Shown here piece by piece: positions 5,361-15,842 of a stretch of DNA of 27,844 nucleotides. Position 1 is the first letter of the stretch. Every line of letters begins with the position of its first letter. A program made the translations under genes and the position numbers. The notes under the pieces were generated by a model. That model worked only from the letters and a program-made list of their open reading frames with translations. It did no database searches and was not told the origin of the DNA. The DNA comes from a virus. Where the stretch lies: positions 1 to 27,844 of IMG/VR virus record IMGVR_UViG_3300007609_000074, one strand, 5' to 3'.

Positions 5361-5452
5361 CAATGGCTTAGCGGTGGCGGCGCCTACAGCACTACGTGCT
5401 TGATTTTATTGGCTTTTTTTCTCTTGCATGTATGGCTGTGCTGTGCGATAAA
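5361..5452 (+). promoter_or_regulatory. Dyad-linked promoter module, rightward (for 5478)
   Basis: The 42-bp dyad is at 5361-5402 (CAATGGCTTAG, 20 bp with central GGCGCC, CTACGTGCTTG). A 21-nt linker follows, then -35 TTGCAT 5424-5429, a 17-bp spacer and -10 GATAAA 5447-5452. This is the only copy of the module facing right, and the gene behind it is also reversed, so module and gene travel as a unit. Confidence 0.75.
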
Positions 5453-5477
5453 AGGTCATCAACAATAGGAGATGACA

Positions 5478-5678
5478 ATGGACGCTATCGACCTTTACAA
5501 CTCAGTAACTAGTCGTGTGGAAGAACAACGAGTATTTGAAGCTGAAGATGGGCAGCATTTTCAGTATGAAACTGACGCTGCTGTTTACAATTTGATGTGC
5601 CTGGCTCGGCTTGATACATCAATTGCAATGCGCGATGTTGCCGAAGCAGTGCGCATGATTTCTGGAACTTATAAGTAG
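5478..5678 (+). CDS. Small early-type hypothetical protein (66 aa)
   Basis: Protein MDAIDLYNSVTSRVEEQRVFEAEDGQHFQYETDAAVYNLM... is soluble, acidic and mostly helical; no family recognised. AGGAG ends six bases before ATG 5478; an ATG two codons earlier (5472) is too close to it. It is the only rightward gene inside the leftward array and has its own dyad-linked promoter. It converges with the helix-turn-helix gene at 5794, with an orphan dyad and a terminator between them. Confidence 0.65.
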   Translation: MDAIDLYNSVTSRVEEQRVFEAEDGQHFQYETDAAVYNLMCLARLDTSIAMRDVAEAVRMISGTYK

Positions 5679-5694
5679 AAAAACTAAGCGTTAT

Positions 5695-5736
5695 CAATGA
5701 GATAGCGCTTAGCGCGCCCCCGGCCCTAAGTGCTTG
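5695..5736. repeat. Orphan 42-bp dyad between convergent genes
   Basis: CAATGAGATAG, 20 bp centred on CGCGCC, then CTAAGTGCTTG. It has the exact 11+20+11 geometry but no -35/-10 at the usual distance on either side. Confidence 0.65.
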
Positions 5737-5757
5737 TTTATAAACACTTTTTTCAGG
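5728..5757 (+). terminator. Intrinsic terminator (rightward)
   Basis: AAGTG and CACTT bracket a loop containing TTTATAAA and are followed by TTTTTT. It begins inside the right arm of the dyad at 5695-5736 and would end transcription of the 5478 gene. Confidence 0.5.
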
Positions 5758-5793
5758 TTGGTTAGGGGGCGAGTGATCCCGCCCCCTGCATCT

Positions 5794-6147
5794 TTAGGCT
5801 GCCTCGTCAACCTCGCTTTCGCTTTCAACCTCAGCGGGAGTAAACGCTGTAATCAGCGCAGAGATAGCCGCCTTTGTAGCACCCATCAGGCCGTCAACCG
5901 GAAAATCGACCAGAGCTTCCAGTTCGGTGAGCAGTTCCTTTTTGGTCGGACCCTCAACCTTGGGTTGCTTGATCGGCTTTTCAGCGGCCACATAGACGCC
6001 CTCGCGGACCAGCTTGGACCGGACGCTGCGCACGCTGCGGCCAAGAGCCTCAGCGATTTCGTCCATACCCTCGTTGCCGAGTTGTTCATACATTTCGACC
6101 GCCTGCGCGACCATTGCTTCGGTGTAGTTCACTTTACGTTCAGCCAT
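5794..6147 (-). CDS. Helix-turn-helix protein, paralog 1 (117 aa)
   Basis: Residues about 8-52 (YTEAMVAQAVEMYEQLGNEGMDEIAEALGRSVRSVRSKLVREGVY) read as a helix-turn-helix DNA-binding unit with the recognition helix at SVRSVRSKLVREG. A Lys/Pro linker (AEKPIKQPKVEGPTKKELLTELEAL) and an acidic tail follow. It is a clear paralog of 10357-10761. AAGGAG precedes ATG 6147. Its promoter has the unusual extra half-site at 6234. DNA binding is inferred from the motif; a role as regulator of the dyad modules is my hypothesis. Confidence 0.75.
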   Translation of the reverse strand: MAERKVNYTEAMVAQAVEMYEQLGNEGMDEIAEALGRSVRSVRSKLVREGVYVAAEKPIKQPKVEGPTKKELLTELEALVDFPVDGLMGATKAAISALITAFTPAEVESESEVDEAA

Positions 6148-6183
6148 GTTGATCTCCTTATCTGGCTTGTTTCTGATAAATTA

Positions 6184-6319
6184 TTTATACGATAAAAATC
6201 AGCTGTCAGCAAGAGAAAAGAATCCTTTAGTTACAACCACTTAGTCATTATTTGCAGTCTAATTCTCTGTTTATTTTCAAGCGCTTAGCCCGCGGGGCGC
6301 CGGGGTGGTTAACCCCTTG
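6184..6319 (-). promoter_or_regulatory. Extended dyad promoter module (for 5794)
   Basis: -10 TATAAA (6184-6189), 17-bp spacer, -35 TTGCTG (6207-6212), 21-nt linker, then only a half-site CAACCACTTAG (6234-6244). The full dyad is 44 bp farther at 6278-6319 (centre GGCGCC). The -10 reads TATAAATAA, also close to a T4-type late promoter. Confidence 0.7.
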
Positions 6320-6320
6320 T

Positions 6321-6527
6321 TTATACTGCATGAATTTCGATGATGGTGGCGTCATAATACGCTTTCAGCGTTTCAACCACCTGCTCCCAGCTATCAAAAG
6401 TAAAGTCTGGGCTATCAGGATTGCCATTGCACCAAACACCGTCATGCTCTTCATCTTCACAGACAAGTTCAAAGTTGCTATCATCTTCCAGCTTGCCATA
6501 GCATTCAACGCCATCAATCTTTTTCAT
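6321..6527 (-). CDS. Small acidic hypothetical protein (68 aa)
   Basis: MKKIDGVECYGKLEDDSNFELVCEDEEHDGVWCNGNPDSPDFTFDSW... is strongly acidic with three Cys, and has the look of a small beta protein. AAGGAG precedes ATG 6527. Its stop is two bases from the edge of the dyad at 6278-6319, an extreme packing typical of this array. Very acidic small early proteins can mimic DNA or bind host enzymes; there is no direct evidence for that here. Confidence 0.65.
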   Translation of the reverse strand: MKKIDGVECYGKLEDDSNFELVCEDEEHDGVWCNGNPDSPDFTFDSWEQVVETLKAYYDATIIEIHAV

Positions 6528-6549
6528 TTGCTTCTCCTTCTGTTAATGT

Positions 6550-6641
6550 TTTATCTCACATTTACGCGCAGCATACAAGCGAAAAGTTTTGTTTAAGTTC
6601 AACGTGTTAGCTACCTAGGCGCTGCGGCACCTAAGTGCCTG
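6550..6641 (-). promoter_or_regulatory. Dyad-linked promoter module (for 6321)
   Basis: -10 GATAAA (6550-6555), 17-bp spacer, -35 TTGTAT (6573-6578), 21-nt linker, dyad 6600-6641 (CAACGTGTTAG ... CTAAGTGCCTG, centre GGCGCT). The stop codon of the 6631 gene lies inside the right arm of the dyad. Confidence 0.75.
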
Positions 6642-6647
6642 TTTTTT
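6626..6647 (+). terminator. Rightward terminator inside dyad
   Basis: GGCAC-CTAA-GTGCC, TG, then TTTTTT. It uses the right arm of the dyad at 6600-6641. Confidence 0.5.
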
Positions 6648-6897
6648 CTAGGTATTCGTGAAACGGAATTGAAACTCCCCTGTAGGGCATGTGCACATCC
6701 TCCAGCTTTTCAGGCAGATCTCCCCGATTATCCAACCAGTTGAGGCAACAGTCATAGCGACCAAAATATTCAATTACGGTATGCTCTACCAGTTTTAGAA
6801 GATCATTCCAGTCGATATTATGGCCTTGATAGACTAGCACATCGTCCTGATAAATGCCCATCCACGTATCGCCAAAAATTCCAGTATATATAGCCAT
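6631..6897 (-). CDS. Hypothetical protein (88 aa)
   Basis: MAIYTGIFGDTWMGIYQDDVLVYQGHNIDWNDLLKLVEHTVIEYFGRYDCCLNWLDNRG... is a soluble alpha/beta protein that I do not recognise. AAAGGAAAA precedes ATG 6897. A 106-nt structured RNA lies between its promoter and its start, so the mRNA would begin with that structure. Its last codons and TAG are encoded in the arm of the neighbouring dyad. Confidence 0.6.
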   Translation of the reverse strand: MAIYTGIFGDTWMGIYQDDVLVYQGHNIDWNDLLKLVEHTVIEYFGRYDCCLNWLDNRGDLPEKLEDVHMPYRGVSIPFHEYLEKTGT

Positions 6898-6917
6898 GCT
6901 GTTTTCCTTTGTTTATG

Positions 6918-7023
6918 TCGACAGGGGCGAGACTCGCGAACCCTCTACTTGATGCTGGCAACCTTTGGCCATTAGGGTGTCAGAGGTGGCGGAAGCCGGT
7001 GCTGCCTCGTATCTCCCTGTCGA
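6918..7023 (-). ncRNA. Cloverleaf-like structured RNA / degenerate tRNA-like element
   Basis: On the minus strand a 9-bp closing helix (TCGACAGGG with CCCTGTCGA) encloses about 88 nt that can form three internal hairpins: GAGG...CCTC, TGGC...GCCA and GCGA-GTC-TCGC. GGGTTCGCGAGTC resembles a tRNA T-arm with two extra bases. The predicted transcription start of the 7030 promoter falls at its 5' end. No normal D arm or anticodon arm could be found, so a functional tRNA is doubtful; it may be a tRNA relic or a 5'-leader RNA. Confidence 0.4.
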
Positions 7024-7029
7024 TAATTA

Positions 7030-7122
7030 TTTATAACATATAAAATAACCTATCAGCAAGCACAAAATGTCTTTTGCTTTCAGTTATTTAGCGTTGGGGG
7101 CGCCGGGGTGGTTAACCCCTTG
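7030..7122 (-). promoter_or_regulatory. Dyad-linked promoter module (for RNA 6918 and gene 6631)
   Basis: -10 TATAAA (7030-7035; spacer 18 in this register), -35 TTGCTG (7054-7059), 21-nt linker, dyad 7081-7122 (CAGTTATTTAG ... TTAACCCCTTG, centre GGCGCC). Rightward, GGGGT-loop-ACCCC then TTGTTTTT is terminator-like. Confidence 0.7.
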
Positions 7123-7128
7123 TTTTTG

Positions 7129-7551
7129 TTATATTTCTTCAACAGGTAGGCGATCCCATTTATAGAAACGGCTTCCCGAGATTTTAAGGATAGGGCTTTC
7201 TGTGCATTTATTATGTTGCAGCAGTGATTTAACCTCTCTAAGCACACTTTTAGCTTGTCGAAAAGTAATTGCAAAAACCTCAGTCTGGCCACTATTCATC
7301 TTGAAACCTTCTTTAGATGCGGGGTCTTGAAAGTTTCCGGAAAGGACAACATCATATGCACGCCCACCTTTATTTTCTGCCAACATTTGCGCAATTGTCT
7401 CAGCATCAGAGTCTTCTACCTCAATGCTTGCCATACGCAGCCGGTCTGATTTTAGAAAACCGATTTGTTTTGCCCGAGCTTGCACGTTGCCTCGCGTGAC
7501 ACCAATTTTGGTAATCCCAAAACCTTCATAACTTATCGCATAGAGTTTCAT
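7129..7551 (-). CDS. Hypothetical protein, possibly GIY-YIG/T5orf172-like (140 aa)
   Basis: The N-terminus MKLYAISYEGFGITKIGVTRGNVQARAKQIG resembles the start of T5orf172/MUG113-type GIY-YIG domains (short beta strand, KIGVT, then an Arg in RxKQ). The later catalytic Glu of a GIY-YIG nuclease is not clear to me, so the match is tentative. A second half (EVFAITFRQAKSVLREVKSLL) is alpha/beta. AAAGGA precedes ATG 7551. If correct it would cut or bind DNA; otherwise unknown. Confidence 0.6.
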   Translation of the reverse strand: MKLYAISYEGFGITKIGVTRGNVQARAKQIGFLKSDRLRMASIEVEDSDAETIAQMLAENKGGRAYDVVLSGNFQDPASKEGFKMNSGQTEVFAITFRQAKSVLREVKSLLQHNKCTESPILKISGSRFYKWDRLPVEEI

Positions 7552-7578
7552 GGCTCATTCCTTTGTTGCGTTAAGTTA

Positions 7579-7670
7579 TTTATAGGTTATTTTGTCCTGC
7601 GCTGCAATAGGTAAATTTCCTTTATTATCAAGCGCTTAGAACGTGTAGCGCCGCCCCTGCTAAGTGCTTG
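7579..7670 (-). promoter_or_regulatory. Dyad-linked promoter module (for 7129)
   Basis: -10 TATAAA (7579-7584, reads TATAAATAA), spacer 17, -35 TTGCAG (7602-7607), linker 21, dyad 7629-7670 (CAAGCGCTTAG ... CTAAGTGCTTG, centre AGCGCC). Confidence 0.75.
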
Positions 7671-7687
7671 ACTTAGCAGGGTTTTTT
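7655..7687 (+). terminator. Strong rightward intrinsic terminator
   Basis: CCCTGCTAAG, seven-base loop, CTTAGCAGGG, TTTTTT: a perfect 10-bp stem. The left strand of the stem contains the right arm of the dyad. It faces against the genes on either side. Confidence 0.75.
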
Positions 7688-8016
7688 CAAACAGATTGTT
7701 GTTGCAGTATTTCTAAATCTTTTTGGCAAAGACATACGCGGGAGACAAGCGAAAGTGTTTGAAGAATGCGTATTTGTTTTTTGCAATAGCGTTCAGCATC
7801 TTTAGCGCGTATGGCCCGTATATCTTCTTTAAACCCCGTAAGGAAATTATTTGCTGCCCACATCCGCGAATACCACGGAAGTGCATTTATTGCCTCTTCT
7901 TCTTGTTGTCTAAGCGCTTCGGCTTTTTTCTCGTAAGCCTGCCGCTCTTCACGATAACGTTGTTCAGCTATTTTAAACGCTTCTAACGCTTGTGGTTGTC
8001 TGATAGAGGTTTTCAT
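7687..8016 (-). CDS. Hypothetical helical protein (109 aa)
   Basis: I start at ATG 8016 (MKTSIRQPQALEAFKIAEQRYREERQAYEKK...) because AAGGAGATG lies just upstream; frames reaching back to 8091 cross the promoter. Residues 10-50 are a charged coiled-coil-like helix, then NALPWYSRMWAANNFLTGF and another basic helix. No family recognised. Its stop is immediately next to the T-run of the terminator at 7655-7687. Confidence 0.6.
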   Translation of the reverse strand: MKTSIRQPQALEAFKIAEQRYREERQAYEKKAEALRQQEEEAINALPWYSRMWAANNFLTGFKEDIRAIRAKDAERYCKKQIRILQTLSLVSRVCLCQKDLEILQQQSV

Positions 8017-8038
8017 AAGCATCTCCTTCGTTTGATTA

Positions 8039-8130
8039 TGTATCGCACACCTGTGCGAGGCAATCAAGATAAAAAAATTGTACCTTTTCAAGCGCTTAGA
8101 ACGTGTAGCGCCGCCCCTGCTAAGTGCTTG
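8039..8130 (-). promoter_or_regulatory. Dyad-linked promoter module (for 7687)
   Basis: -10 GATACA (8039-8044), spacer 17, -35 TTGATT (8062-8067), linker 21, dyad 8089-8130. Dyad plus terminator are identical over 59 bp to those at 7629-7687. Confidence 0.75.
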
Positions 8131-8147
8131 ACTTAGCAGGGTTTTTT
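8115..8147 (+). terminator. Strong rightward intrinsic terminator
   Basis: Same perfect CCCTGCTAAG/CTTAGCAGGG stem and TTTTTT as at 7655-7687; it abuts the stop codon of the 8148 gene. Confidence 0.75.
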
Positions 8148-8588
8148 CTAGTTGAGTGCTGCTACTGAACGGGCCAGATGCCGATTATGATGCAAATTCA
8201 TTGCCAGCATGGTTCCCATCAACAGATCGTCAGTATCAAGCCACGTCCAGAGCGGGTGATGCGTAAATGCAACATCGCTAATGCCGTTAGGCGAGATGCT
8301 TTTGCAGCGACCTACCGCATACACCGGCTTGCCTACTCCGTAGGCCATACCAATCTCAACCAACGCACCGCGCTGTTCTTCCTCAAAATCCTCGCTGTAG
8401 AGAAGCACAAAGTCGCTTTGCGTCACATCTTCAAGGCAAAGCTGCCAAAGATCGCCTTTGCGGTTCTGCACAAAATCGCTGTCATTGTCCAGATCAATCC
8501 AACGTGCTTGAACCGGAAGGCCGAGCGTGTCGCGCAGATTTTGGAATTTTGGGGCGTGCCAAACTTTACCGGCTGTATAGAATTTCAT
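8148..8588 (-). CDS. Nucleoside 2-deoxyribosyltransferase-like protein (146 aa)
   Basis: The N-terminus MKFYTAGKVWHAPKFQNLRDTL, a middle CLEDVTQSDFVLLYSEDFEEEQRGALVEIGMAYGVGKPVYAVG and the size match the nucleoside deoxyribosyltransferase family. In that family the Glu in the GxxxEIGxA helix (E78 here) is the nucleophile and D54/D59 lie in the base-binding strand. These enzymes swap bases on deoxynucleosides for nucleotide salvage; related folds also hydrolyse nucleotide signals. Phage use for salvage or anti-defence is inference. AAAGGA precedes ATG 8588. Confidence 0.7.
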   Translation of the reverse strand: MKFYTAGKVWHAPKFQNLRDTLGLPVQARWIDLDNDSDFVQNRKGDLWQLCLEDVTQSDFVLLYSEDFEEEQRGALVEIGMAYGVGKPVYAVGRCKSISPNGISDVAFTHHPLWTWLDTDDLLMGTMLAMNLHHNRHLARSVAALN

Positions 8589-8616
8589 ATCGTGTTCCTT
8601 TCGTTGCTGTTAAACT

Positions 8617-8708
8617 CTTATCGCATACTTAGACAGGTGTTGCAAGCAAAAAGAACTGTTCTAAATCAATAGCTTAACCGCCGAGGCGCCTAGGCACCTA
8701 AGTGCCTG
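8617..8708 (-). promoter_or_regulatory. Dyad-linked promoter module (for 8148)
   Basis: -10 GATAAG (8617-8622), spacer 17, -35 TTGCAA (8640-8645), linker 21, dyad 8667-8708 (CAATAGCTTAA ... CTAAGTGCCTG, centre GGCGCC). Its linker is nearly identical to that of the module at 14552. Confidence 0.75.
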
Positions 8709-8711
8709 AAT

Positions 8712-8915
8712 TTATTCTATTAATTCAACGCTCTCCAACCCGACGTAGCAATCATCAATCAAGCGCTGAAAATAGCTTTCAAAACAAGCCGAGTCTTCGT
8801 CAGCAGCCATTGCATGTAAGGTATCATTATTATGCAACCAACGAATAGCTGCGTCTTCAGTTGAGAAGATTAGGCGTTCTTGTCCAATATCCCATTCGCA
8901 CCAGACACGTTTCAT
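8712..8915 (-). CDS. Hypothetical protein (67 aa)
   Basis: MKRVWCEWDIGQERLIFSTEDAAIRWLHNNDTLHAMAADEDSACFESYFQRLIDDCYVGLESVELIE is small and acidic, with a strand-helix-helix look. The ATG overlaps the TGA of the upstream gene, and the Glu-coding GAGGAGG run at that gene's end serves as ribosome-binding site, so the two are coupled. Function unknown. Confidence 0.65.
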   Translation of the reverse strand: MKRVWCEWDIGQERLIFSTEDAAIRWLHNNDTLHAMAADEDSACFESYFQRLIDDCYVGLESVELIE

Positions 8916-9169
8916 GCCTCTTCCTCCTCTTCTAAATCTTCATAGCAGCGCCAGCAATAGTATTCGCCATTTTCTACGTATTCCATACTATCAATAGTAA
9001 AATTCCAACCACAGCAATCACAGTTCCCAATCTCTTTATATACTTCGTCCTGAACCTGTTGTTGTTCTTCAGGTGTTAGCGCTTCGTATTCCTCGTTCCA
9101 CGCAATGTGAAACGTGCCGTCGCTGTATTCAATAATTTCGTCGGCGATTAGGTTAAGTTTATCATTCAT
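8912..9169 (-). CDS. Acidic zinc-ribbon protein (85 aa)
   Basis: The protein has a polar N-terminal half (EYSDGTFHIAWNEEYEALTPEEQQQVQDEVYKE), then CDCCGWNF near residue 50 and CWRCYED near residue 73, two CxxC knuckles forming a probable zinc ribbon, and a poly-Glu end (LEEEEEA). GAAAGGA precedes ATG 9169. It is the first gene of a two-gene unit. Zinc ribbons of this type usually mediate protein or nucleic-acid contacts; the target is unknown. Confidence 0.7.
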   Translation of the reverse strand: MNDKLNLIADEIIEYSDGTFHIAWNEEYEALTPEEQQQVQDEVYKEIGNCDCCGWNFTIDSMEYVENGEYYCWRCYEDLEEEEEA

Positions 9170-9191
9170 CTGCTTTCCTTTCTGTTATCTC

Positions 9192-9283
9192 CTTATAGCC
9201 CATCCGTGCGAGGCAATCAAGTATAAAATGTCCTTTGCTTTCAAGCGCTTAGCGCAGACAGCGCCCCGCCCGCTAACCGCTTG
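9192..9283 (-). promoter_or_regulatory. Dyad-linked promoter module (for 8912-8712 unit)
   Basis: -10 TATAAG (9192-9197), spacer 17, -35 TTGATT (9215-9220), linker 21, dyad 9242-9283 (CAAGCGCTTAGC ... GCTAACCGCTTG, centre AGCGCC). Confidence 0.75.
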
Positions 9284-9331
9284 TTTTTATTGAGTTTTTT
9301 GGCGAGGACCGAAGCCCTCGCCAGATCGCCT

Positions 9332-10036
9332 TTAAGCTGCAAGCGGAACCTTGCCGTCAACACCAAGGCGAGTGTTGATTTTTTGCCACACCGCACCGGC
9401 AAACTCACGCGGCGAGTGCACAACCGGAAGGCGTTTCTTGCGGCTCAGGGCACGGCAAAGGATATCGCCCTCGATCAAAACATCGGACCAAGCGATGTGC
9501 CGCTCTACAAACTCAGGTTGCATAAACTCAAACTTGTATGCGCTTTCTGCACTCGTGCTATAGTAGCGGCCCGAGGCCGATGCCGGGGCGTTATAATGTT
9601 TCGGCACGCTTTGCCCCCAGTAATCCCAAATGTCCAGCAGTTCAACCGGGCGTTGCATCCACCGCTGGCTTGCATCGCCAGAAATCTTTTGGATTGTTTC
9701 CGGCAGATATTTGAAATCAAAGGCTGCATTGTATGCGCACGCAATCACGCGGTGCCCTGCATCTTGCAGTTGTGCAATCTGCCCGTTATATTCTTCCCGC
9801 ACCTCAAAAATGCTGGCCGGTTCAATCAGATGCGAATAAGCGTCATCAAAATAGTGGCCCAGCTTTTCCTTGAAAAACGGAACATCAAGCTTGAACGCTT
9901 CACGGATAACATACGATCCGCGACCATACTCCCGCCCGCGCTTATCGTGAATTTTCCAAGCAATATCGAACGCGATGCGCTTTTTGAGAGTGGTTTCAAT
10001 ATCAGTAGTGACGAACAGGGTGGGTTTCTTAGCCAT
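9332..10036 (-). CDS. DnaQ-like 3'-5' exonuclease (DEDDh type, 234 aa)
   Basis: Three exonuclease motifs are visible: TTDIETT with D12/E14, NAAFDFKYL with D107, and HIAWSDVLIEGDIL with H180 and D185 (HxAxxD). These are the four acidic metal ligands and the general-base histidine of the DEDDh/RNase T-DnaQ superfamily, which removes nucleotides from 3' ends. Length fits a stand-alone phage exonuclease. The last 45 residues (SRKKRLPVVHSPREFAG) are extra. AAAGGAAA precedes ATG 10036. Likely roles are host DNA breakdown or proofreading/recombination; the substrate cannot be told from sequence. Confidence 0.85.
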   Translation of the reverse strand: MAKKPTLFVTTDIETTLKKRIAFDIAWKIHDKRGREYGRGSYVIREAFKLDVPFFKEKLGHYFDDAYSHLIEPASIFEVREEYNGQIAQLQDAGHRVIACAYNAAFDFKYLPETIQKISGDASQRWMQRPVELLDIWDYWGQSVPKHYNAPASASGRYYSTSAESAYKFEFMQPEFVERHIAWSDVLIEGDILCRALSRKKRLPVVHSPREFAGAVWQKINTRLGVDGKVPLAA

Positions 10037-10072
10037 TGCAGTGTTTCCTTTTGTCTGCGTTTCCTTAAGACT

Positions 10073-10208
10073 GTTATGCCATGCGCGGAGGGTGTTTGCA
10101 AGAAAAAAGAATGCAGTAAAAACAAAGGCTTAGCAGAAAAATGGGGTGTAAAAAAGCATTTATTTTCAAGGGCTTAGCGCCCGGGGCGCCTCCGGCCCTA
10201 AACCATTG
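10073..10208 (-). promoter_or_regulatory. Extended dyad promoter module (for 9332)
   Basis: -10 CATAAC (10073-10078), spacer 17, -35 TTGCAA (10096-10101), linker 21, half-site CAAAGGCTTAG (10123-10133), then the full dyad 44 bp farther at 10167-10208 (CAAGGGCTTAG ... CTAAACCATTG, centre GGCGCC). Confidence 0.7.
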
Positions 10209-10225
10209 ATATGGTTAGCTTTTTT
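10198..10225 (+). terminator. Rightward intrinsic terminator overlapping dyad
   Basis: CTAAACCAT / ATGGTTAG stem with one bulge, then GC and TTTTTT. It shares the right arm of the 10167-10208 dyad. Confidence 0.55.
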
Positions 10226-10231
10226 AGGGTT

Positions 10232-10356: not shown

Positions 10357-10761
10357 TTAGGCGGCTTCGTCAACCGCAGTTTCAGCAACGTCCCAGCCTT
10401 CGGGCGTGGCATCGCCTTCGGCGTCTGCCGGATCAGCGGCAACGCTTTCTGCGCCTTCATCCCGCAGGTGGTCGATCAGAGCAGCGATTGCCGCTTTGGT
10501 TGCGCCCATGAAGCCTTCAACCGCAAAGGGTGCGAGTTCTTCAAGCTCGCGCAGCATTTCCTTTTTGGTCGGGCCTTCCGGCTTGACCTGTTTCACCGGC
10601 TTTTCCGGTGCCTGATAGACGCCTTCGCGCACCAGCTTGGACCGGACAGAGCGGACCGACTTGCCAATGCTTTCAGCAATGGTTTCAACGTCCGTGCCGG
10701 ACTCATACTGTTCCACGATAGCGGCGGTAAGTTCGGGGGTGTAGTTGGGTTGTGCAGCCAT
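10357..10761 (-). CDS. Helix-turn-helix protein, paralog 2 (134 aa)
   Basis: Residues about 6-52 (YTPELTAAIVEQYESGTDVETIAESIGKSVRSVRSKLVREGVY) form a helix-turn-helix unit nearly matching that of 5794-6147 (shared SVRSVRSKLVREGVYxAxEKPxKQ, GPTKKExLxELE, GATKAAIxALI). The C-terminal acidic tail is longer. AGGAG precedes ATG 10761. Like its paralog it is driven by the extended promoter with an extra half-site, which would suit autoregulation. It is GC-richer than its neighbours. Confidence 0.75.
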   Translation of the reverse strand: MAAQPNYTPELTAAIVEQYESGTDVETIAESIGKSVRSVRSKLVREGVYQAPEKPVKQVKPEGPTKKEMLRELEELAPFAVEGFMGATKAAIAALIDHLRDEGAESVAADPADAEGDATPEGWDVAETAVDEAA

Positions 10762-10796: not shown

Positions 10797-10932
10797 TTTA
10801 TCACATAAAACAAAGCATCGAGCAAGAGAAAAGAATGCAGCGAATACAAGGACTTAGGGTTTATTTCCAGATTAAAAAAGCGTTTATTATCAAGTGCTTA
10901 GCGAGCGGGGCGCTGCCCCCGCTATGCTATTG
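10797..10932 (-). promoter_or_regulatory. Extended dyad promoter module (for 10357)
   Basis: -10 GATAAA (10797-10802), spacer 17, -35 TTGCTC (10820-10825), linker 21, half-site CAAGGACTTAG (10847-10857), full dyad 44 bp farther at 10891-10932 (CAAGTGCTTAG ... CTATGCTATTG, centre GGCGCT). Confidence 0.7.
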
Positions 10933-10949
10933 ACATAGCAGGGTTTTTT
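10916..10949 (+). terminator. Rightward intrinsic terminator overlapping dyad
   Basis: CCCCGCTATG, loop, CATAGCAGGG (one mismatch), TTTTTT. It abuts the stop codon of the 10950 gene. Confidence 0.65.
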
Positions 10950-11123: not shown

Positions 11124-11133
11124 TGGTTTCTCC

Positions 11134-11232: not shown

Positions 11233-11332
11233 TGGCAATCTCCTTTTCTACTGCGCGAATAGCTTCTAGAACGCGGTCATCATGGTCCATATCGTATTGT
11301 TTTCTCAGATCGTCTAGCAGGGCATAAAGCAT
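11216..11332 (-). CDS. Small charged helical protein (38 aa)
   Basis: MLYALLDDLRKQYDMDHDDRVLEAIRAVEKEIANETRN is predicted as two amphipathic helices. A strong AAAGGAGGTG precedes ATG 11332, and the dyad-linked promoter at 11355 lies directly upstream, which is the best evidence that it is real. First gene of the 11332-10950 unit. Confidence 0.55.
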   Translation of the reverse strand: MLYALLDDLRKQYDMDHDDRVLEAIRAVEKEIANETRN

Positions 11333-11354
11333 TAACACCTCCTTTTGTTAATTG

Positions 11355-11446
11355 TTTATCACATATTTCTTTAGACTACGCAAGGCAAAAGAATGTAGTA
11401 AAATCAAGACGTTAACGCGTCGGGCGCCGGGGTGATTAACCCCTTG
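11355..11446 (-). promoter_or_regulatory. Dyad-linked promoter module (for 11332-10950 unit)
   Basis: -10 GATAAA (11355-11360), spacer 17, -35 TTGCGT (11378-11383), linker 21, dyad 11405-11446 (CAAGACGTTAAC ... ATTAACCCCTTG, centre GGCGCC). Confidence 0.75.
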
Positions 11447-11452
11447 TTTTTA

Positions 11453-11650
11453 TTAGCTTAATCCCCATGCTGCAAAGCCTGCGACTACCGCATTGGTTGT
11501 AAGAAGCCAACCATCGCCTTGTTTGACTGAGTGAATAATCCATGCCACGCACGCGGCAAGCCCAATAACCATAGCAAGTTTTACGCTATATCCAAATGAA
11601 AGCGCAGCCATTTGAACAATTACGCCCAGCGTTCCTATCATTCCAAACAT
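11453..11650 (-). CDS. Small three-pass membrane protein (65 aa)
   Basis: MFGMIGTLGVIVQMAALSFGYSVKLAMVIGLAACVAWIIHSVKQGDGWLLTTNAVVAGFAAWGLS has three hydrophobic segments (about 2-20, 25-42, 49-64). The spacing loosely recalls three-helix half-transporter units, but no diagnostic motif allows a name. It starts one base after the stop of the 11652 gene, so they share one mRNA. Confidence 0.6.
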   Translation of the reverse strand: MFGMIGTLGVIVQMAALSFGYSVKLAMVIGLAACVAWIIHSVKQGDGWLLTTNAVVAGFAAWGLS

Positions 11651-11651
11651 G

Positions 11652-11858
11652 TTAGCCCTCGATCATTGCAGTTGAGTTGCCCGTAAGCGAGCGCGGAAAA
11701 TGCACTACCGCAGCAGTTGATGGGTGCGCGCAGTTTTCAACGCGGCACGGGTATGTGTGCGGGGCAGGCTGATTTCCATGCTCTGCCCAAAGGTTGATAC
11801 CACATACTGCGCATTTACCGCAAGGCATCATTTCACGATATTTCAGTTTTTTTGCCAT
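11652..11858 (-). CDS. Small zinc-ribbon protein (68 aa)
   Basis: MAKKLKYREMMPCGKCAVCGINLWAEHG... has CGKCAVCG near residue 13 and later Cys (PCRVENC), giving a probable zinc ribbon with a basic N-terminus. GAAAGGAAA precedes ATG 11858. First gene of a two-gene unit with the membrane protein at 11453. Function unknown. Confidence 0.65.
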   Translation of the reverse strand: MAKKLKYREMMPCGKCAVCGINLWAEHGNQPAPHTYPCRVENCAHPSTAAVVHFPRSLTGNSTAMIEG

Positions 11859-11882
11859 CAGCTTTCCTTTCGTTGTTAATTG

Positions 11883-11974
11883 TTTATCGCATATAATCAG
11901 GGTTGTTGCAAGCGAAAAGAATGACGCGTTTTCAATGGGTTAGAAGCCGGGGCGCCGGGGCCTCCAACCCCTTG
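11883..11974 (-). promoter_or_regulatory. Dyad-linked promoter module (for 11652-11453 unit)
   Basis: -10 GATAAA (11883-11888), spacer 17, -35 TTGCAA (11906-11911), linker 21, dyad 11933-11974 (CAATGGGTTAG ... CCAACCCCTTG, centre GGCGCC). The arms have co-varied: GGGTT pairs with AACCC. Confidence 0.75.
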
Positions 11975-11984
11975 TTTTTGTTGC

Positions 11985-12233
11985 CTAAAACCAGACCATG
12001 TCGCGGCGCCAACTATCCCGCATATCGCGATAAGTCTCTGGAATGCCTTGCGCAAAGACTCCGAAGACGGTCACCGCAATAAACCACACCCAAGAAAGTG
12101 GATGAAGCATACGCAAATGCTGTTTTGCCTGTCCGTAGTCGTCTTTGCGCCACGCAATCATTCCTAGTGCGTTAAAAATACGCAGCAACCACATACGTTT
12201 TAGCTTGCGAGCCTTGCTTTCTGAGTATCTCAT
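11985..12233 (-). CDS. Basic membrane-associated protein (82 aa)
   Basis: A very basic N-terminus (MRYSESKARKLKRMWLLRIFNALGMIAWRK) is followed by one hydrophobic span (LSWVWFIAVTVFGVFA) and an Arg/Asp-rich end. The ATG overlaps the upstream stop (ATGA), so it is coupled to 12230-12355; GGAG lies inside that gene. Probably inner-membrane; role unknown. Confidence 0.6.
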   Translation of the reverse strand: MRYSESKARKLKRMWLLRIFNALGMIAWRKDDYGQAKQHLRMLHPLSWVWFIAVTVFGVFAQGIPETYRDMRDSWRRDMVWF

Positions 12234-12355
12234 TCAATAGTCTCCAGCGCTGCCGCAGTTGATCCACTCGACTTATAGTCAAAGTCGATGAACTCTTGCA
12301 AAAATAGGTGATTGAGGAAACTGACGTATTCGTGATATTCCCATCCATCTTTCAT
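12230..12355 (-). CDS. Small hypothetical protein (41 aa)
   Basis: I start at ATG 12355 (MKDGWEYHEYVSFLNHLFLQEFIDFDYKSSG...) because AAAGGAG precedes it. A longer frame to 12430 would run back through the promoter. The product is aromatic and acidic. It is the first gene of a two-gene unit with 11985. Confidence 0.5.
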   Translation of the reverse strand: MKDGWEYHEYVSFLNHLFLQEFIDFDYKSSGSTAAALETIE

Positions 12356-12377
12356 AGTATTCTCCTTTTGATAAGCC

Positions 12378-12469
12378 TTTATCTCATATTGTTTCGCTTG
12401 CTGCAAGATAAAAGTTTCTTTAGTTATCAAGCTCTTAAGAGTTATGGCGCCGGGGTGGTTAACCCCTTG
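12378..12469 (-). promoter_or_regulatory. Dyad-linked promoter module (for 12230-11985 unit)
   Basis: -10 GATAAA (12378-12383), spacer 17, -35 TTGCAG (12401-12406), linker 21, dyad 12428-12469 (CAAGCTCTTAAG ... GTTAACCCCTTG, centre GGCGCC). Confidence 0.75.
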
Positions 12470-12472
12470 TGT

Positions 12473-12634
12473 TTATTGATCTTTTAGAGTCTCTTTTATT
12501 TGTTTTCTCACCCACTGCTTCACACGACGCTTGATTGTGCGATCATGTGATTTACGATTTTTAGGGCTAGGACCGCAACAAACACAATTGCGACCTCCTG
12601 GGCCGTAATGTGAGAAGGTTTGTGTCTCTTTCAT
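12473..12634 (-). CDS. Small basic Cys-containing protein (53 aa)
   Basis: MKETQTFSHYGPGGRNCVCCGPSPKNRKSHDRTIKRRVKQWVRKQIKETLKDQ has one CVCC knuckle and a strongly basic second half, suggesting nucleic-acid binding. GGAAAGG precedes ATG 12634, which overlaps the upstream TGA (ATGA). The stop is three bases from the dyad at 12428-12469. No family recognised. Confidence 0.6.
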   Translation of the reverse strand: MKETQTFSHYGPGGRNCVCCGPSPKNRKSHDRTIKRRVKQWVRKQIKETLKDQ

Positions 12635-12792
12635 CGTACCTTTCCTTGTTCAACCCAGTGCATCAGCAGTATCTTGATATCTTCAAGCGTATCACACGAC
12701 AGCACCTCGTTATATAGGCGCTGTTCATTTATCAATGAACGAACCTGTGCAGGCGTATACCCTAATTTACGTCCTTGCTGTATCACGCTCAT
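12631..12792 (-). CDS. Small hypothetical protein (53 aa)
   Basis: MSVIQQGRKLGYTPAQVRSLINEQRLYNEVLSCDTLEDIKILLMHWVEQGKVR is a helical protein; RKLGYTPAQVRSLI could be a small helix-turn-helix-like segment but is too short to be sure. GGAAAG precedes ATG 12792. First gene of a coupled pair with 12473. Confidence 0.6.
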   Translation of the reverse strand: MSVIQQGRKLGYTPAQVRSLINEQRLYNEVLSCDTLEDIKILLMHWVEQGKVR

Positions 12793-12817
12793 TAGTCTTT
12801 CCTTTTGTTGTTAAACT

Positions 12818-12909
12818 CTTATCTCATATCCATGCGAAGCAATCAAGTAAAAACAATTGTTGATTATCAAGCGTTTAGGGCGCTGGGCGCCCAGACTAGT
12901 AACGTATTG
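12818..12909 (-). promoter_or_regulatory. Dyad-linked promoter module (for 12631-12473 unit)
   Basis: -10 GATAAG (12818-12823), spacer 17, -35 TTGATT (12841-12846), linker 21, dyad 12868-12909 (CAAGCGTTTAG ... GTAACGTATTG, centre GGCGCC). Confidence 0.75.
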
Positions 12910-12927
12910 ATAATGCACGTTTTTTTG
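12902..12927 (+). terminator. Possible rightward terminator overlapping dyad
   Basis: ACGTATT-GAT-AATGCACGT with a GC bulge, followed by seven T. Weaker than the 7655 and 8115 copies. Confidence 0.4.
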
Positions 12928-12971
12928 TGTTTACTTTCGAACTTCGCTTCCCGACTTTGCACCGGCGCAGG

Positions 12972-13118
12972 CTACGCCTCGCGCTTGAGGCGGTTCAGCC
13001 GTGCGACATATTTGTTGTGCAACCTAATCCATACTTTGCGTTCTGCCGGATTATTACTCGCCTCTACGTTGTCACGTGCCAGTTTTATACGTGCTAGAAG
13101 TTGTTCTCGCTCATTCAT
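12972..13118 (-). CDS. Small basic helical protein (48 aa)
   Basis: MNEREQLLARIKLARDNVEASNNPAERKVWIRLHNKYVARLNRLKREA is a charged, helical, probably nucleic-acid-associated peptide. ATG 13118 overlaps the end of the upstream gene by eight bases, with GAGGA upstream. The TAG stop sits in the loop of a short hairpin (AGGC-TAC-GCCT on the plus strand). Last of a three-gene coupled unit. Confidence 0.55.
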   Translation of the reverse strand: MNEREQLLARIKLARDNVEASNNPAERKVWIRLHNKYVARLNRLKREA

Positions 13119-13248
13119 AACATCCTCGCTTCAACTTCGATTTGTCACGCGCACGTTGAGCTTTTGCACTCTTCACATGTGCACCTTGTTTTTTTACAAC
13201 TAGATGTTGCACAAATGGATCGCGGGGTTTTGGCGTTTTGCGTTTCAT
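13111..13248 (-). CDS. Highly basic phage microprotein (45 aa)
   Basis: MKRKTPKPRDPFVQHLVVKKQGAHVKSAKAQRARDKSKLKRGCYE matches a pattern I know from many phages (NPFV...KGGAHxKxxKAxRRxxK), always short and very basic, of unknown function and probably nucleic-acid binding. ATG 13248 overlaps the upstream TGA (ATGA). The recurrent sequence pattern makes this a real gene despite its size. Confidence 0.7.
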   Translation of the reverse strand: MKRKTPKPRDPFVQHLVVKKQGAHVKSAKAQRARDKSKLKRGCYE

Positions 13249-13436
13249 TCTCGCACCTCCTTTATTGATACAATTTCCAGCACGTTACCGTTTTCGTCTT
13301 CCCACAGATCGCCGTGCAAGGTTGTAAAAGTGTCCACCGCGTCAACTAAATTCTTACCATAGATGGCCTGTTCATACATAGCCACGATTTCGTTGTGCTT
13401 AACATTGACAGCTTTCCAGATAAAATAAAAGGTCAT
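13245..13436 (-). CDS. Hypothetical protein (63 aa)
   Basis: I start at ATG 13436 (MTFYFIWKAVNVKHNEIVAMYEQAIYGKNLVDAVDTFTTLHGDLWEDENGNVLEIVSIKEV), preceded by AAGGAG; the longer frame reads into the promoter. It looks like a small strand-helix-strand protein. First gene of the unit 13436-12972. Unnamed. Confidence 0.65.
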   Translation of the reverse strand: MTFYFIWKAVNVKHNEIVAMYEQAIYGKNLVDAVDTFTTLHGDLWEDENGNVLEIVSIKEVRE

Positions 13437-13464
13437 GGCGTGTGCTCCTTGCTGCGATGAATCT

Positions 13465-13557
13465 GTTATCGCATATCCATGCGAGCGAGTCAAGCAAGAA
13501 AAAAGTGTTTATTTTCAAGGGCTTGCCAGCGCGGGGGCCGCGGCACCTAAGTGCCTG
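13465..13557 (-). promoter_or_regulatory. Dyad-linked promoter module (for 13436-12972 unit)
   Basis: -10 GATAAC (13465-13470), spacer 17, -35 TTGACT (13488-13493), dyad 13516-13557 (CAAGGGCTTGC ... CTAAGTGCCTG, centre GGGGCC, the least symmetric copy). The linker is 22 nt here, the only departure from 21. Confidence 0.65.
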
Positions 13558-13575
13558 ATATTGCAGGCTTTTTCA
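13553..13575 (+). terminator. Rightward terminator overlapping dyad
   Basis: GCCTG-ATATTG-CAGGC followed by TTTTT. It overlaps the stop of the HAD gene. Confidence 0.5.
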
Positions 13576-14046
13576 AGCCTGCAACCGTTGGTTGACCTTG
13601 TGAGCGTTGAGACACGTCAGACCCATACGGCGCATCTCTGCAATCACAGGGCGAGCATCATCAAACATGTATTTCGGCAGGTTGCGAAACTGTTTGAGAT
13701 TGAATAGGCGAGACAAGCCGCGCCGCTTCAACTCTGGGTCGCGCATTGTTTTTTCTGCCTCAGTAAACCGAGCGATAATTTTGTGAGCGTGCAACCCATG
13801 CTTGTCCAGAAACTCCTGATCGAAGTCAGCCCACGTGCGAGCCGTGCAAACGATCACATAGGTTTCGGATAGGTCAAGCGACCGCCAAAATTCAGCCAGC
13901 GGCAGCAAACCGTCGAGCATAGTGTTTTCGCGGGTTTTCATGCTCAGGTAGAGCGGCAGGTTCAACGTCCCGTCAGGATTGTTGGGCGTGCGATGGGCGC
14001 TATCGACAACCGTTTCATCCAGATCAAAAATAACGATGCGTTTCAT
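13573..14046 (-). CDS. HAD-superfamily phosphatase (157 aa)
   Basis: Motif I is IVIFDLDETVVDS with D8 as nucleophile and D10 as acid/base, motif II is VIVCTART with T68, and motif IV is YMFDDARPV with D129/D130. This is the layout of small phage HAD phosphatases and of the 3'-phosphatase half of phage polynucleotide kinases, though no kinase domain is present. It probably removes phosphate from nucleic-acid ends or a nucleotide, in the cytoplasm. AAGGAGG precedes ATG 14046. Substrate is inference. Confidence 0.8.
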   Translation of the reverse strand: MKRIVIFDLDETVVDSAHRTPNNPDGTLNLPLYLSMKTRENTMLDGLLPLAEFWRSLDLSETYVIVCTARTWADFDQEFLDKHGLHAHKIIARFTEAEKTMRDPELKRRGLSRLFNLKQFRNLPKYMFDDARPVIAEMRRMGLTCLNAHKVNQRLQA

Positions 14047-14072
14047 GTGTGAGCCTCCTTAGCTGTTAAGCC

Positions 14073-14164
14073 TTTATCGCATATAAAAAGCAGGAATGCA
14101 ATAGGAAAATTTTGTTTGTTTTCAGTGGGTTAGCGCCCGGGGCGCCCCCCTACATAACCGCTTG
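14073..14164 (-). promoter_or_regulatory. Dyad-linked promoter module (for HAD gene)
   Basis: -10 GATAAA (14073-14078), spacer 17, -35 TTGCAT (14096-14101), linker 21, dyad 14123-14164 (CAGTGGGTTAG ... ATAACCGCTTG, centre GGCGCC). Confidence 0.75.
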
Positions 14165-14182
14165 ATTATGCAGGGTTTTTTC
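14148..14182 (+). terminator. Rightward terminator overlapping dyad
   Basis: CCCTaCATAA, loop, TTATGcAGGG, then TTTTTT; the stem has one mismatch. Confidence 0.55.
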
Positions 14183-14184
14183 TG

Positions 14185-14523
14185 TCAGATAAGTCTGAGA
14201 ATTGGTTTTCCAAAAATATCCAAGTGCGGGTTATAGTCAGAACTTGGACCCATTACCGTTTCAACGTCGGGGTGCCCTTTTATAACCGCGATAGCTTCTA
14301 GCGTATCAGCAAAGTTTTGAATGTCTTCTTCATCGCTGCTATCAATGAAAGCTTCTTCCAGCATCTCAGCAGCAGGTAAGAGCAAAAACTTGTCAAGTTC
14401 GTCTCCGTAGATATGCTCTTCATGGTGCATAAATTCGTGGGTAAATATTTCGTTTGTCTCGCTATCACGAAAGATTAGTGTGAAAGCATTGTTCTTGATC
14501 GGTCCATTGATATTTGCAGCCAT
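14185..14523 (-). CDS. Acidic hypothetical protein (112 aa)
   Basis: MAANINGPIKNNAFTLIFRDSETNEIFTHEFMHHEEHIYGDELDKF... is strongly acidic (ALEEAFIDSSDEEDIQNFADTLEAI). A HEFMH string is present but I do not regard it as a protease site without support for a third ligand. ATAGGAC precedes ATG 14523. It is a single-gene unit with its own module. Function unknown. Confidence 0.65.
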   Translation of the reverse strand: MAANINGPIKNNAFTLIFRDSETNEIFTHEFMHHEEHIYGDELDKFLLLPAAEMLEEAFIDSSDEEDIQNFADTLEAIAVIKGHPDVETVMGPSSDYNPHLDIFGKPILRLI

Positions 14524-14551
14524 TTGTTTGTCCTATCGTTGCTGTTATCCC

Positions 14552-14643
14552 CTTATCGCATATCCATGCGAAGCAATCAAGTAAAAAGAACTGTTCTAAA
14601 TCAATAGCTTAGCTGCCGGGGCGCCTCCGCGCCTAACTGCTTG
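14552..14643 (-). promoter_or_regulatory. Dyad-linked promoter module (for 14185)
   Basis: -10 GATAAG (14552-14557), spacer 17, -35 TTGATT (14575-14580), linker 21, dyad 14602-14643 (CAATAGCTTAG ... CTAACTGCTTG, centre GGCGCC). Confidence 0.75.
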
Positions 14644-14647
14644 AGAC

Positions 14648-15103
14648 TTAACGATAAAATATGTGTTTATCAAGAGTCAGCACGTGTTCAAAGGCCTCAG
14701 CCCAATATGGATGAACATAAACCGCATGATAGTGAGTTGCTCCTAGTGAAAAGTCTTCTCCCACTGCATACCAGCGTATAGCGGTGCTAGCTAAGCGTTG
14801 CGCACGAGCCCAAGCATCTGCCTCTTTAGGAGTATCTGACGCACCATCACAAAACCAGCTAAATTGACAACGGTGACGAATGATTTTTCCTGTGCTATCT
14901 CGTTTTGCTTGTTTTACAACGCTACAGATGTTATTGGGAAAGCGTGGCGAGGCAACGCGATTAAGAGTTACATGCGCAACCGCTATTTGGGCCTCTTCAC
15001 TTTCACCCCGCGCCTCGTGGTAGATGTTGAGTGCAAGGCAGTGTTGTTCGCTGGCAGCAGCGCCACCAGCGAACAAAGCGAGAATAAATGCAAGCGTTTT
15101 CAT
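14648..15103 (-). CDS. Secreted SleB-type cell-wall hydrolase (151 aa)
   Basis: A signal peptide is visible (MKTLAFILALFAGGAAASEQ), then LALNIYHEARGESEEAQIAVAHVTLNRVASPRFPNNICSVVKQ and CQFSWFCDG, the hallmark segments of the SleB/Hydrolase_2 family, with the Glu of HEARGE as likely catalytic acid. These enzymes cut peptidoglycan glycan strands. I start at ATG 15103, which overlaps the upstream stop as ATGA and gives a clean signal; the longer frame (to 15142) would bury it. Export suggests a lysin or wall-remodelling enzyme acting from the periplasm. Confidence 0.85.
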   Translation of the reverse strand: MKTLAFILALFAGGAAASEQHCLALNIYHEARGESEEAQIAVAHVTLNRVASPRFPNNICSVVKQAKRDSTGKIIRHRCQFSWFCDGASDTPKEADAWARAQRLASTAIRWYAVGEDFSLGATHYHAVYVHPYWAEAFEHVLTLDKHIFYR

Positions 15104-15282
15104 GCGAACTGCCTTGCAGCATTGGAAATAGGCGTTGCCCAAATATCAGCAGGCTTGATACCACGAATAAGAGCATCTACCCGAGCACGGGCAATGCCTT
15201 CTGCCGCAACACCGCTCCACGTGAACGCACGAGAGATATTGCCATATTCATCCTCGACCCAGATAACAAAACGTCCAATCAT
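15100..15282 (-). CDS. Small hypothetical protein coupled to hydrolase (60 aa)
   Basis: Starts MIGRFVIWVEDEYGNISRAFTWSGVAAEGIARARVDALIRGIKPADIWATPIS; a strong AAAGGAGG precedes ATG 15282. The strand-rich beginning (RFVIWVEDEYGNIS) and a helix follow; no family recognised. Its TGA overlaps the hydrolase ATG, so it may set hydrolase translation level. Longer frames to 15363 cross the promoter. Confidence 0.65.
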   Translation of the reverse strand: MIGRFVIWVEDEYGNISRAFTWSGVAAEGIARARVDALIRGIKPADIWATPISNAARQFA

Positions 15283-15306
15283 AGTAGATCCTCCTTTTGA
15301 TAAATA

Positions 15307-15398
15307 TTTATCGCATATTTTTAAGCGCTGGGCAAGAACAAAATGTCTTTTGTTTGTAGACACTTAGCCACCAGGGCGCCGCCTTAGCTATCTCTTTG
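15307..15398 (-). promoter_or_regulatory. Dyad-linked promoter module (for 15282-14648 unit)
   Basis: -10 GATAAA (15307-15312), spacer 17, -35 TTGCCC (15330-15335), linker 21, dyad 15357-15398 (TAGACACTTAG ... CTATCTCTTTG, centre GGCGCC). Confidence 0.7.
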
Positions 15399-15414
15399 AT
15401 AACTAAGGCTTTTT
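15381..15414 (+). terminator. Rightward intrinsic terminator overlapping dyad
   Basis: GCCTTAG ... CTAAGGC with inner TATC/GATA pairing, followed by TTTTT. Confidence 0.65.
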
Positions 15415-15585
15415 ATGTGTTGCATTTCTAAAAGTTCTGCTGCTACTGCCAGAGAACTTGCTTAACCTGTTAGGTCGAGTCTCGTATCTTATTAGTCATT
15501 ATATTATCCACGCGCTAAGTTTGTTCCTAAGTTTTAATTAAGGGTGTATATTAGGGGCCGTCTCTGATACTATTCATGGTAAACC

Positions 15586-15723
15586 TTACGATTGAGAGCT
15601 GCTGATACTCCAGTGACGCTTGCCATCGCGATCACGGTAGCTGACGAGGTTGGGAGCACGATTGCGTCCTGCCTTGACAGGGTGAGTGCTGCGCTTGCTG
15701 GAACCTTTTTTGCTTTTTGCCAT
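15586..15723 (-). CDS. Highly basic small protein (45 aa)
   Basis: MAKSKKGSSKRSTHPVKAGRNRAPNLVSYRDRDGKRHWSISSSQS begins at ATG 15723 directly after AAGGAGG and downstream of a full dyad-linked promoter. A longer overlapping frame (15570-15803) runs through the promoter, lacks a ribosome-binding site and gives an odd Ala/Thr-rich product, so I prefer this one. Lys/Arg-rich start suggests nucleic-acid binding. About 170 bases to its left (15415-15585) hold no gene I can support. Confidence 0.6.
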   Translation of the reverse strand: MAKSKKGSSKRSTHPVKAGRNRAPNLVSYRDRDGKRHWSISSSQS

Positions 15724-15750
15724 TGTGGCCTCCTTCGTTGCTGATAACTC

Positions 15751-15842
15751 TTTATCGCATAGTATTTTGCTTGCTGCAAGTAAAAAGAATCGTTATAAAT
15801 CAAGGCGTTAACCGCCGGGGCGCTGCACGTGATAACTCATTG
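15751..15842 (-). promoter_or_regulatory. Dyad-linked promoter module (for 15586)
   Basis: -10 GATAAA (15751-15756), spacer 17, -35 TTGCAG (15774-15779), linker 21, dyad 15801-15842 (CAAGGCGTTAAC ... GATAACTCATTG, centre GGCGCT). Rightmost complete module. Confidence 0.75.

Follow-up and report, generated by a model that had tools for sequence, protein, structure and literature searches.

What kind of control element is the 42-bp dyad that recurs upstream of the promoters in a block of small viral genes? The block occupies positions 5361-15842 of an uncultured virus record, IMG/VR record IMGVR_UViG_3300007609_000074, and the whole stretch of 27,844 bases that was analysed is called the window. 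An earlier interpretation made from the letters alone (the sequence-only reading) had described nineteen promoter modules of one layout in this block and had likened them to the promoter plus stem-loop (PeSL) cassettes of phage T4. The presence of the modules in the window is confirmed, and the interpretation as a whole is partly supported. What was overlooked is that each half-site of the dyad appears to be a consensus site for integration host factor (IHF) accompanied by an A-tract. Based on the results presented below, the modules are probably sigma70-type promoters phase-locked to an upstream double IHF site.

The block contains 20 copies of the 42-bp dyad, 19 of which drive a sigma70-type promoter. 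From the dyad inwards, each module consists of a 21-nt linker, a TTG-type -35, a 17-nt spacer (18 nt only at 7081) and a GATAAA or TATAAA -10, which is often preceded by TGC. All nineteen modules of the described layout are present; a pattern search with up to 3 mismatches gave 22 places in the window, and the reversed-pattern control gave 0. The linker also behaves as described. Among the 16 modules without a third half-site it is 21 nt in 15 and 22 nt in one (13516), and in the other three (6278, 10167 and 10891) a third half-site starts 44 bp past the proximal half-site and is followed by 21 nt (44 + 21 = 65), which preserves the 21-nt distance to the -35. The first dyad (5361) drives the plus strand and the other 18 promoter dyads drive the minus strand, on which most of the small genes of the block lie. 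The central hexamer, said to be GGCGCC-like, is exactly GGCGCC in 12 of the 17 window copies scored; the rest depart from it as AGCGCC or GGCGCT (4) or GGCCCC (1).

The identity of the half-sites emerges from an alignment of 116 oriented dyad copies from the window and its relatives. Conservation extends past the 42 bp, as AWAT-CAAnnnnTTAG on one side and the mirror image CTAAnnnnTTG-ATWT on the other, and each half-site plus its flank corresponds to the IHF consensus WATCAANNNNTTR on both sides of the dyad. The match to WATCAANNNNTTR is perfect in 49/116 distal and 55/116 proximal half-sites, and a further 52 distal and 45 proximal ones differ at one position, giving 101/116 and 100/116 at 0-1 mismatch. 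It should be mentioned that the W, A and T bases of the flank lay outside the search pattern with which the dyads were found; all three agree with the consensus at 55 of the distal and 62 of the proximal sites. Perfect consensus matches number 12 in the window between 5.3 and 16 kb, where shuffles give 0.5; over the whole window there are 16, and 13 of them fall within dyads. In addition, both flanks show an enrichment of A at -17 to -12, counted from the C of CAA, and this is visible in most window copies. The AAAAAA of the H' IHF site in the lambda record has exactly this offset (-17 to -12). The IHF consensus sits in the right part of a 35-bp wrapped site, most strong sites carry an A-tract on the left, and the bend amounts to 160 degrees (PMC8421141). 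Thus the dyad can be read as two predicted IHF sites, inverted around a GC-rich core, which would explain both its fixed ends and its free nnnn, the latter being the putative NNNN of the IHF consensus. We regard the assignment of the half-sites to IHF as very likely. No gene of the HU/IHF family (PF00216) was found among 22 contigs, and therefore the IHF would have to be that of the host.

The modules and related features are as follows, with window coordinates and with the open reading frame (ORF) or gene that each promoter is predicted to drive; HTH stands for helix-turn-helix.

5344-5452, plus: module 1, dyad 5361-5402, 21-nt linker, -35 TTGCAT, 17 nt, -10 GATAAA; ORF 5472-5678 (plus).
5695-5736, no strand: dyad without promoter, between convergent genes.
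6184-6336, minus: module 2, dyad 6278-6319, third predicted IHF half-site 6234-6244, 21 nt, -35 TTGCTG, -10 TATAAA; D5-like HTH gene 5794-6147 (minus).
6550-6658, minus: module 3, dyad 6600-6641, -35 TTGTAT, -10 GATAAA; ORF 6321-6527 (minus).
7030-7139, minus: module 4, dyad 7081-7122, -35 TTGCTG, 18-nt spacer, -10 TATAAA; ORF 6631-6897 (minus).
7579-7687, minus: module 5, dyad 7629-7670, -35 TTGCAG, -10 TATAAA; ORF 7129-7551 (minus).
8039-8147, minus: module 6, dyad 8089-8130, -35 TTGATT, -10 GATACA; ORF with its end at 7687 (minus).
8617-8725, minus: module 7, dyad 8667-8708, -35 TTGCAA, -10 GATAAG; ORF 8148-8588 (minus).
9192-9300, minus: module 8, dyad 9242-9283, -35 TTGATT, -10 TATAAG; ORF 8912-9169 (minus).
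10073-10225, minus: module 9, dyad 10167-10208, third predicted IHF half-site 10123-10133, 21 nt, -35 TTGCAA, -10 CATAAC; ORF 9332-10036 (minus).
10797-10949, minus: module 10, dyad 10891-10932, third predicted IHF half-site 10847-10857, 21 nt, -35 TTGCTC, -10 GATAAA; D5-like HTH gene 10357-10761 (minus).
11355-11463, minus: module 11, dyad 11405-11446, -35 TTGCGT, -10 GATAAA.
11883-11991, minus: module 12, dyad 11933-11974, -35 TTGCAA, -10 GATAAA; ORF 11652-11858 (minus).
12378-12486, minus: module 13, dyad 12428-12469, -35 TTGCAG, -10 GATAAA.
12818-12926, minus: module 14, dyad 12868-12909, both predicted IHF cores perfect, -35 TTGATT, -10 GATAAG; ORF 12631-12792 (minus).
13465-13574, minus: module 15, degenerate dyad 13516-13557 with a GGCC centre, 22-nt linker, -35 TTGACT, -10 GATAAC.
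14073-14181, minus: module 16, dyad 14123-14164, -35 TTGCAT, -10 GATAAA; PNKP-like phosphatase gene 13573-14046 (minus).
14552-14660, minus: module 17, dyad 14602-14643, -35 TTGATT, -10 GATAAG; ORF 14185-14523 (minus).
15307-15415, minus: module 18, dyad 15357-15398, proximal half degenerate, -35 TTGCCC, -10 GATAAA.
15751-15859, minus: module 19, dyad 15801-15842, both predicted IHF cores perfect, -35 TTGCAG, -10 GATAAA.
16928-16969, no strand: extra exact dyad beyond the block, no convincing promoter at 21/22 nt.
5794-6147, minus: D5-like HTH protein, paralogue 1, candidate phage-encoded partner.
10357-10761, minus: D5-like HTH protein, paralogue 2.

Is the geometry a property of this one record or of a wider group of phages? 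The module is present on more than 20 other IMG/VR contigs. The exact pattern was found in IMG/VR in 27 stretches on about 20 contigs, and with mismatches allowed most of the carrier contigs hold 5-23 copies each, which on the long contigs are clustered within roughly 5-15 kb. The small terminase of the window is similar to its counterparts in T5-like phages, and a relative carrying the element has a large terminase about 40% identical to those of Demerecviridae; a T4-like identity of the phage is ruled out by these matches. In 173 promoter modules the dyad measures 42 bp in 158, 43 bp in 9 and 41 bp in 6, so that the invariant length claimed for the dyad is nearly, not universally, fixed, with 40-43 bp occurring. 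A 43-bp form (8+9, GCGC centre) is present on 5 contigs, 3 of which have genuine module clusters, and no viral contig has 40- or 44-bp totals with a GCGC centre. The linker in the same modules is 21 nt in 74, 22 nt in 69, 20 nt in 12, 23 nt in 10 and 24 nt in 8; across the relatives 21 and 22 nt are thus about equal, and the 21/22 peak stands above a background level of some 4 copies at each position. A sister lineage, reached via contigs that share the HTH gene family, has an 18-bp centre and 40 bp in all, with a linker of 31 nt in 9 of 10 promoters and 41 nt in the other (contigs L057 and L071), and the 42-bp lineage shows a minor peak at 42 nt. The linkers of 21/22, 31 and 41/42 nt are steps of about one helical turn, and with each of them the predicted IHF site stands upstream of the sigma70 promoter at a fixed helical phase. 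This strengthens the earlier proposal that a protein bound at the dyad would occupy a constant face relative to RNA polymerase. Outside these contigs, blastn of one module against phages gave chance matches only, and the two matching stretches in cellular genomes have neither IHF flanks nor promoter context. On a relative with a D5-like HTH gene (L122, 3906-7650), inverted IHF-like pairs with a 14-bp centre were also seen.

The following mechanism may be proposed. Each module would combine a sigma70-type promoter with an upstream inverted pair of host-IHF sites, in the order A-tract, core WATCAANNNNTTAG, GC-rich core, CTAANNNNTTGATW and T-tract. IHF loaded onto the proximal site would occupy roughly -40 to -75 and put a sharp bend beside the -35, and a second, mirror-image IHF would add another bend three helical turns farther out. 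With the linker fixed in phase (21/22, 31 or 41/42 nt), the upstream DNA so folded would stay on one and the same face of RNA polymerase, where it would most likely stimulate initiation, like IHF upstream of other phage promoters. Finally, the hairpin of the outer arm, which is terminator-like in many copies and faces away from the promoter, would separate neighbouring units. The grounds for this model are sequence-based, namely the IHF consensus on both sides, the offset of the A-tract, the phasing, the conservation and a hairpin covariation confined to the outer arm. From them we infer IHF occupancy, bending and activation, together with any core factor; the small genes and the D5-like genes would point to early timing of the block.

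Several points weigh against this model. The presence of IHF in the host is an assumption; the conserved GC core is left unexplained by IHF; and none of six cultured T5-like or related phage records (0/6) carries the element. In addition, the proximal A-tract lies at the position of an UP element, 4-8 nt ahead of the -35, and IHF bound there could compete with the C-terminal domain of the alpha subunit (alpha-CTD) or with RNA polymerase and repress the promoter, which is a serious alternative. More broadly, IHF may bind with repression or timing over the A/T-rich linker as its main role, or it may pin plectonemes and insulate the units topologically. IHF is able to pin plectonemes and to partition DNA into domains (PMC9519438), and the many closely spaced units would suit insulation. 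However, the fixed helical phase and the extra phased sites are more typical of an activation geometry, and a repressor normally overlaps the -35 or the -10. We lean towards activation over repression, though with some reserve, and give the broader repression or insulation explanation a minor share of the probability.

Another question concerns the GC-rich core, which lies roughly between the two expected footprints of about 35 bp. Its hexamer differs by lineage: the lineage of the window has mostly GGCGCC, the sister lineage CCCGGG or a similar sequence, and part of a further group GGCCCC. The core may act as a stiff spacer, or a phage factor specific to the lineage may bind there; the obvious candidate for such a factor may be the D5-like HTH family. 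No other gene family is as widespread in these contigs (22 groups), and two or three paralogues are often present. The family matches phrog_323, "transcriptional regulator, D5-like" (E about 2e-5), and has an almost invariant VRSVRSKLVREGVY motif; two of its paralogues are those of the window. The model of the protein has a confident helical fold (pLDDT 86), and a fold search with it gave only weak Myb/homeodomain-like matches (E above 0.2) and no close solved match. Triple-site promoters are enriched before HTH genes, at 9/13 against 10/160 (p = 1.7e-7, a value that is too small as some contigs are near-copies), and the window and contigs L005, L006, L017, L031 and L038 each give at least one triple-site HTH promoter. 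The sequence-only reading had named the two HTH proteins as possible binders, and as D5-like paralogues they may indeed bind the region; the half-sites themselves, on the other hand, fit IHF. If the phage-encoded protein bound the half-sites, the likeness to IHF would be coincidental, which the breadth of the family and the triple-site enrichment might favour. We consider this unlikely, as the core, the NNNN gap, the W-A-T flank and the A-tract offset all fit IHF, and 36 of 57 further HTH-family contigs have no 20-bp-centre dyad in the stretch scanned, some of them having the 18-bp type.

Does the symmetry act in DNA, as the double-IHF model holds, or in RNA? The arms had been reported to covary. 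They do not: the complementarity of nnnn is 1.56 against 1.51 in shuffles, 165 of 500 shuffles being as high, and the inner 8+8 bases of the dyad show no covariation either. Therefore the symmetry is at the DNA level and is not that of an RNA hairpin, and an RNA palindrome or cruciform spanning the dyad is ruled out. Instead, the promoter-distal arm covaries with its own outer flank as a stem-loop (z -11.0 for antisense RNA and -14.6 for sense RNA), whereas the proximal arm and its flank do not (z -0.6). Many distal stems are 10-13 bp long and adjoin A/T runs, and about 40% of the oriented copies lack a strong distal hairpin (minimum free energy above -6). Owing to the position of the IHF A-tract, many copies have T after the stem on the strand that leads away from the promoter, and no U-run follows the outer hairpin in the sense direction. 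The outer IHF site may thus double as a terminator-like hairpin against gene-side transcription or as a stem-loop in the 3' region of the upstream gene; at the promoterless dyad 5695-5736, the minus-strand T-run of the left-arm hairpin could terminate the 5794-6147 transcript. An antisense sigma70 promoter within the linker, with transcription running into the outward terminator, was considered and dropped, as no consistent -10 was seen by eye. G-U pairs in strong distal stems lean towards the sense strand (36 against 19), a bias partly forced by the IHF consensus and from which no conclusion is drawn. Taken by themselves, the distal covariation, the many stems beside A/T runs and this G-U bias would suit an element that is mainly RNA, a stem-loop or terminator cassette between genes with the symmetry as a by-product. 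The silent proximal arm, the failure of the two arms to pair and the copies without a strong hairpin make such an element improbable, and its T-run faces off the promoter, the wrong way to terminate the transcript of the upstream gene. The close likeness to T4 PeSL proposed in the sequence-only reading is lost on the same ground, while its view of a protein-binding DNA element in front of many small genes, going beyond a promoter with a stem-loop, gains support.

A mobile or selfish repeat of the type of the Correia repeat enclosed element (CREE) or a miniature inverted-repeat transposable element, carrying promoters by chance, could account for the many copies (those at 7629 and 8089 are identical) and for IHF sites with inverted symmetry as in the Neisseria CREE (PMC2649163), but it is very improbable, since the copies differ at most unconstrained bases, are phase-locked to promoter and gene start and recur at most genes across diverged phages, and no terminal repeats or target duplications were seen, though without a systematic search.

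In some relatives the modules carry a further signal. GANTC occurs in the spacer or the -10 of 45/110 modules against 5.3 in shuffled spacers. Of these 45 occurrences, 42 begin at spacer position 9 or 10; in 37/110 modules, all in relatives, the match extends to YGAKTCG. This is the extended motif of GcrA-activated, CcrM-methylated promoters of alphaproteobacteria, and its methylated form has been proposed as required for activation by GcrA (PMC7987155). The modules concerned are confined to some contigs (L009, L010, L014, L016, L019 and L032), in which GANTC is mostly enriched 1.5-2.1 fold across the sequence. In the window, neither GANTC nor YGAKTCG lies between the -35 and the -10 in any of 15 modules tested, and GANTC is depleted (0.39x), the window and other module-negative contigs being at 0.3-0.4 fold. 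The placement of YGAKTCG in the spacer is that of GcrA/CcrM promoters, and it hints at CcrM-bearing, alphaproteobacterial hosts for some of the relatives.

Other features of the window were also noted. The PNKP-like phosphatase domain gene at 13573-14046 (minus; HAD_PNKP, phrog_415 polynucleotide kinase) is common to 21 contig groups, and a cell wall hydrolase (SleB-like Hydrolase_2, E 5e-23) is encoded at 14648-15142 (minus), inside the block of small genes. A second conserved promoter class lies on the plus strand at 4479-4516, 4921-4958, 16418-16450, 16810-16843 and 17585-17622. Its layout is TTGAC-N16/18-TATAAT followed by TGGCGC at the predicted start, and it also occurs on L006, L020, L023, L025, L028, L032, L038, L040 and L042; GGCGC is common to this class and the dyad core. 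Plus-strand runs similar to TTTCGACTTT and ending in ACTGGCGC are found near block ends (about 5085-5245, 12935-12965 and 15858-15945), and look like a further repeat family.

If the double-IHF model is right, transcription of these phages depends on a nucleoid protein of the host, and the 21/22, 31 and 41/42 nt versions of one module form a natural experiment on bending phase and RNA polymerase; the GANTC variants of the relatives would link phage transcription to the host cell cycle. A more speculative extension, which we put forward only tentatively, is that a T5-like clade standardised its promoter block on a double-IHF "staple", phase-locked to RNA polymerase, with a lineage-specific GC palindrome between the two IHF bends that is recognised by a phage factor evolving along with it (perhaps the D5-like HTH proteins), and that some lineages have tied these promoters to the GcrA/CcrM methylation switch of the host cell cycle.

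How does the module compare with known systems? IHF sites upstream of phage early promoters, such as lambda pL and those of Mu, stimulate them, and the present modules likewise have a predicted IHF site ahead of their sigma70 promoter. In the record of Mu, a perfect match to the IHF consensus precedes a candidate -35 of the early promoter by about 34 nt; the stretch of the lambda pL region examined gave no IHF match at 0-1 mismatch and was not used as a geometric yardstick. Lambda and Mu have one or few such sites per genome, whereas here about 19 promoters each have an inverted pair with a GC core, held in fixed helical phase. Phage promoters with IHF upstream are known; no report of a phage region in which nearly all promoters carry an inverted IHF pair in fixed helical register was found in the open-licence literature. 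The H' site of lambda attP shares the core and the A-tract offset with the half-sites of the window, but it belongs to a recombination site without an inverted pair, and not to a promoter module. T4 PeSL is a repeated promoter plus stem-loop between small phage genes, whereas here the symmetry is at the DNA level and is built of predicted protein sites. The BIMEs (bacterial interspersed mosaic elements; RIB/RIP) of E. coli combine intergenic palindromes with an IHF site, mostly at 3' ends and with one IHF site between repetitive extragenic palindromic (REP) sequences; here a GC palindrome lies between two predicted IHF sites, ahead of promoters. Finally, the Neisseria CREE unites a promoter, an IHF site and inverted symmetry in a repeated element (PMC2649163), but it is insertion sequence-like, mostly 104-108 or 153-157 bp long and with IHF only in the long form, whereas the present element is a 42-bp core held in promoter register.

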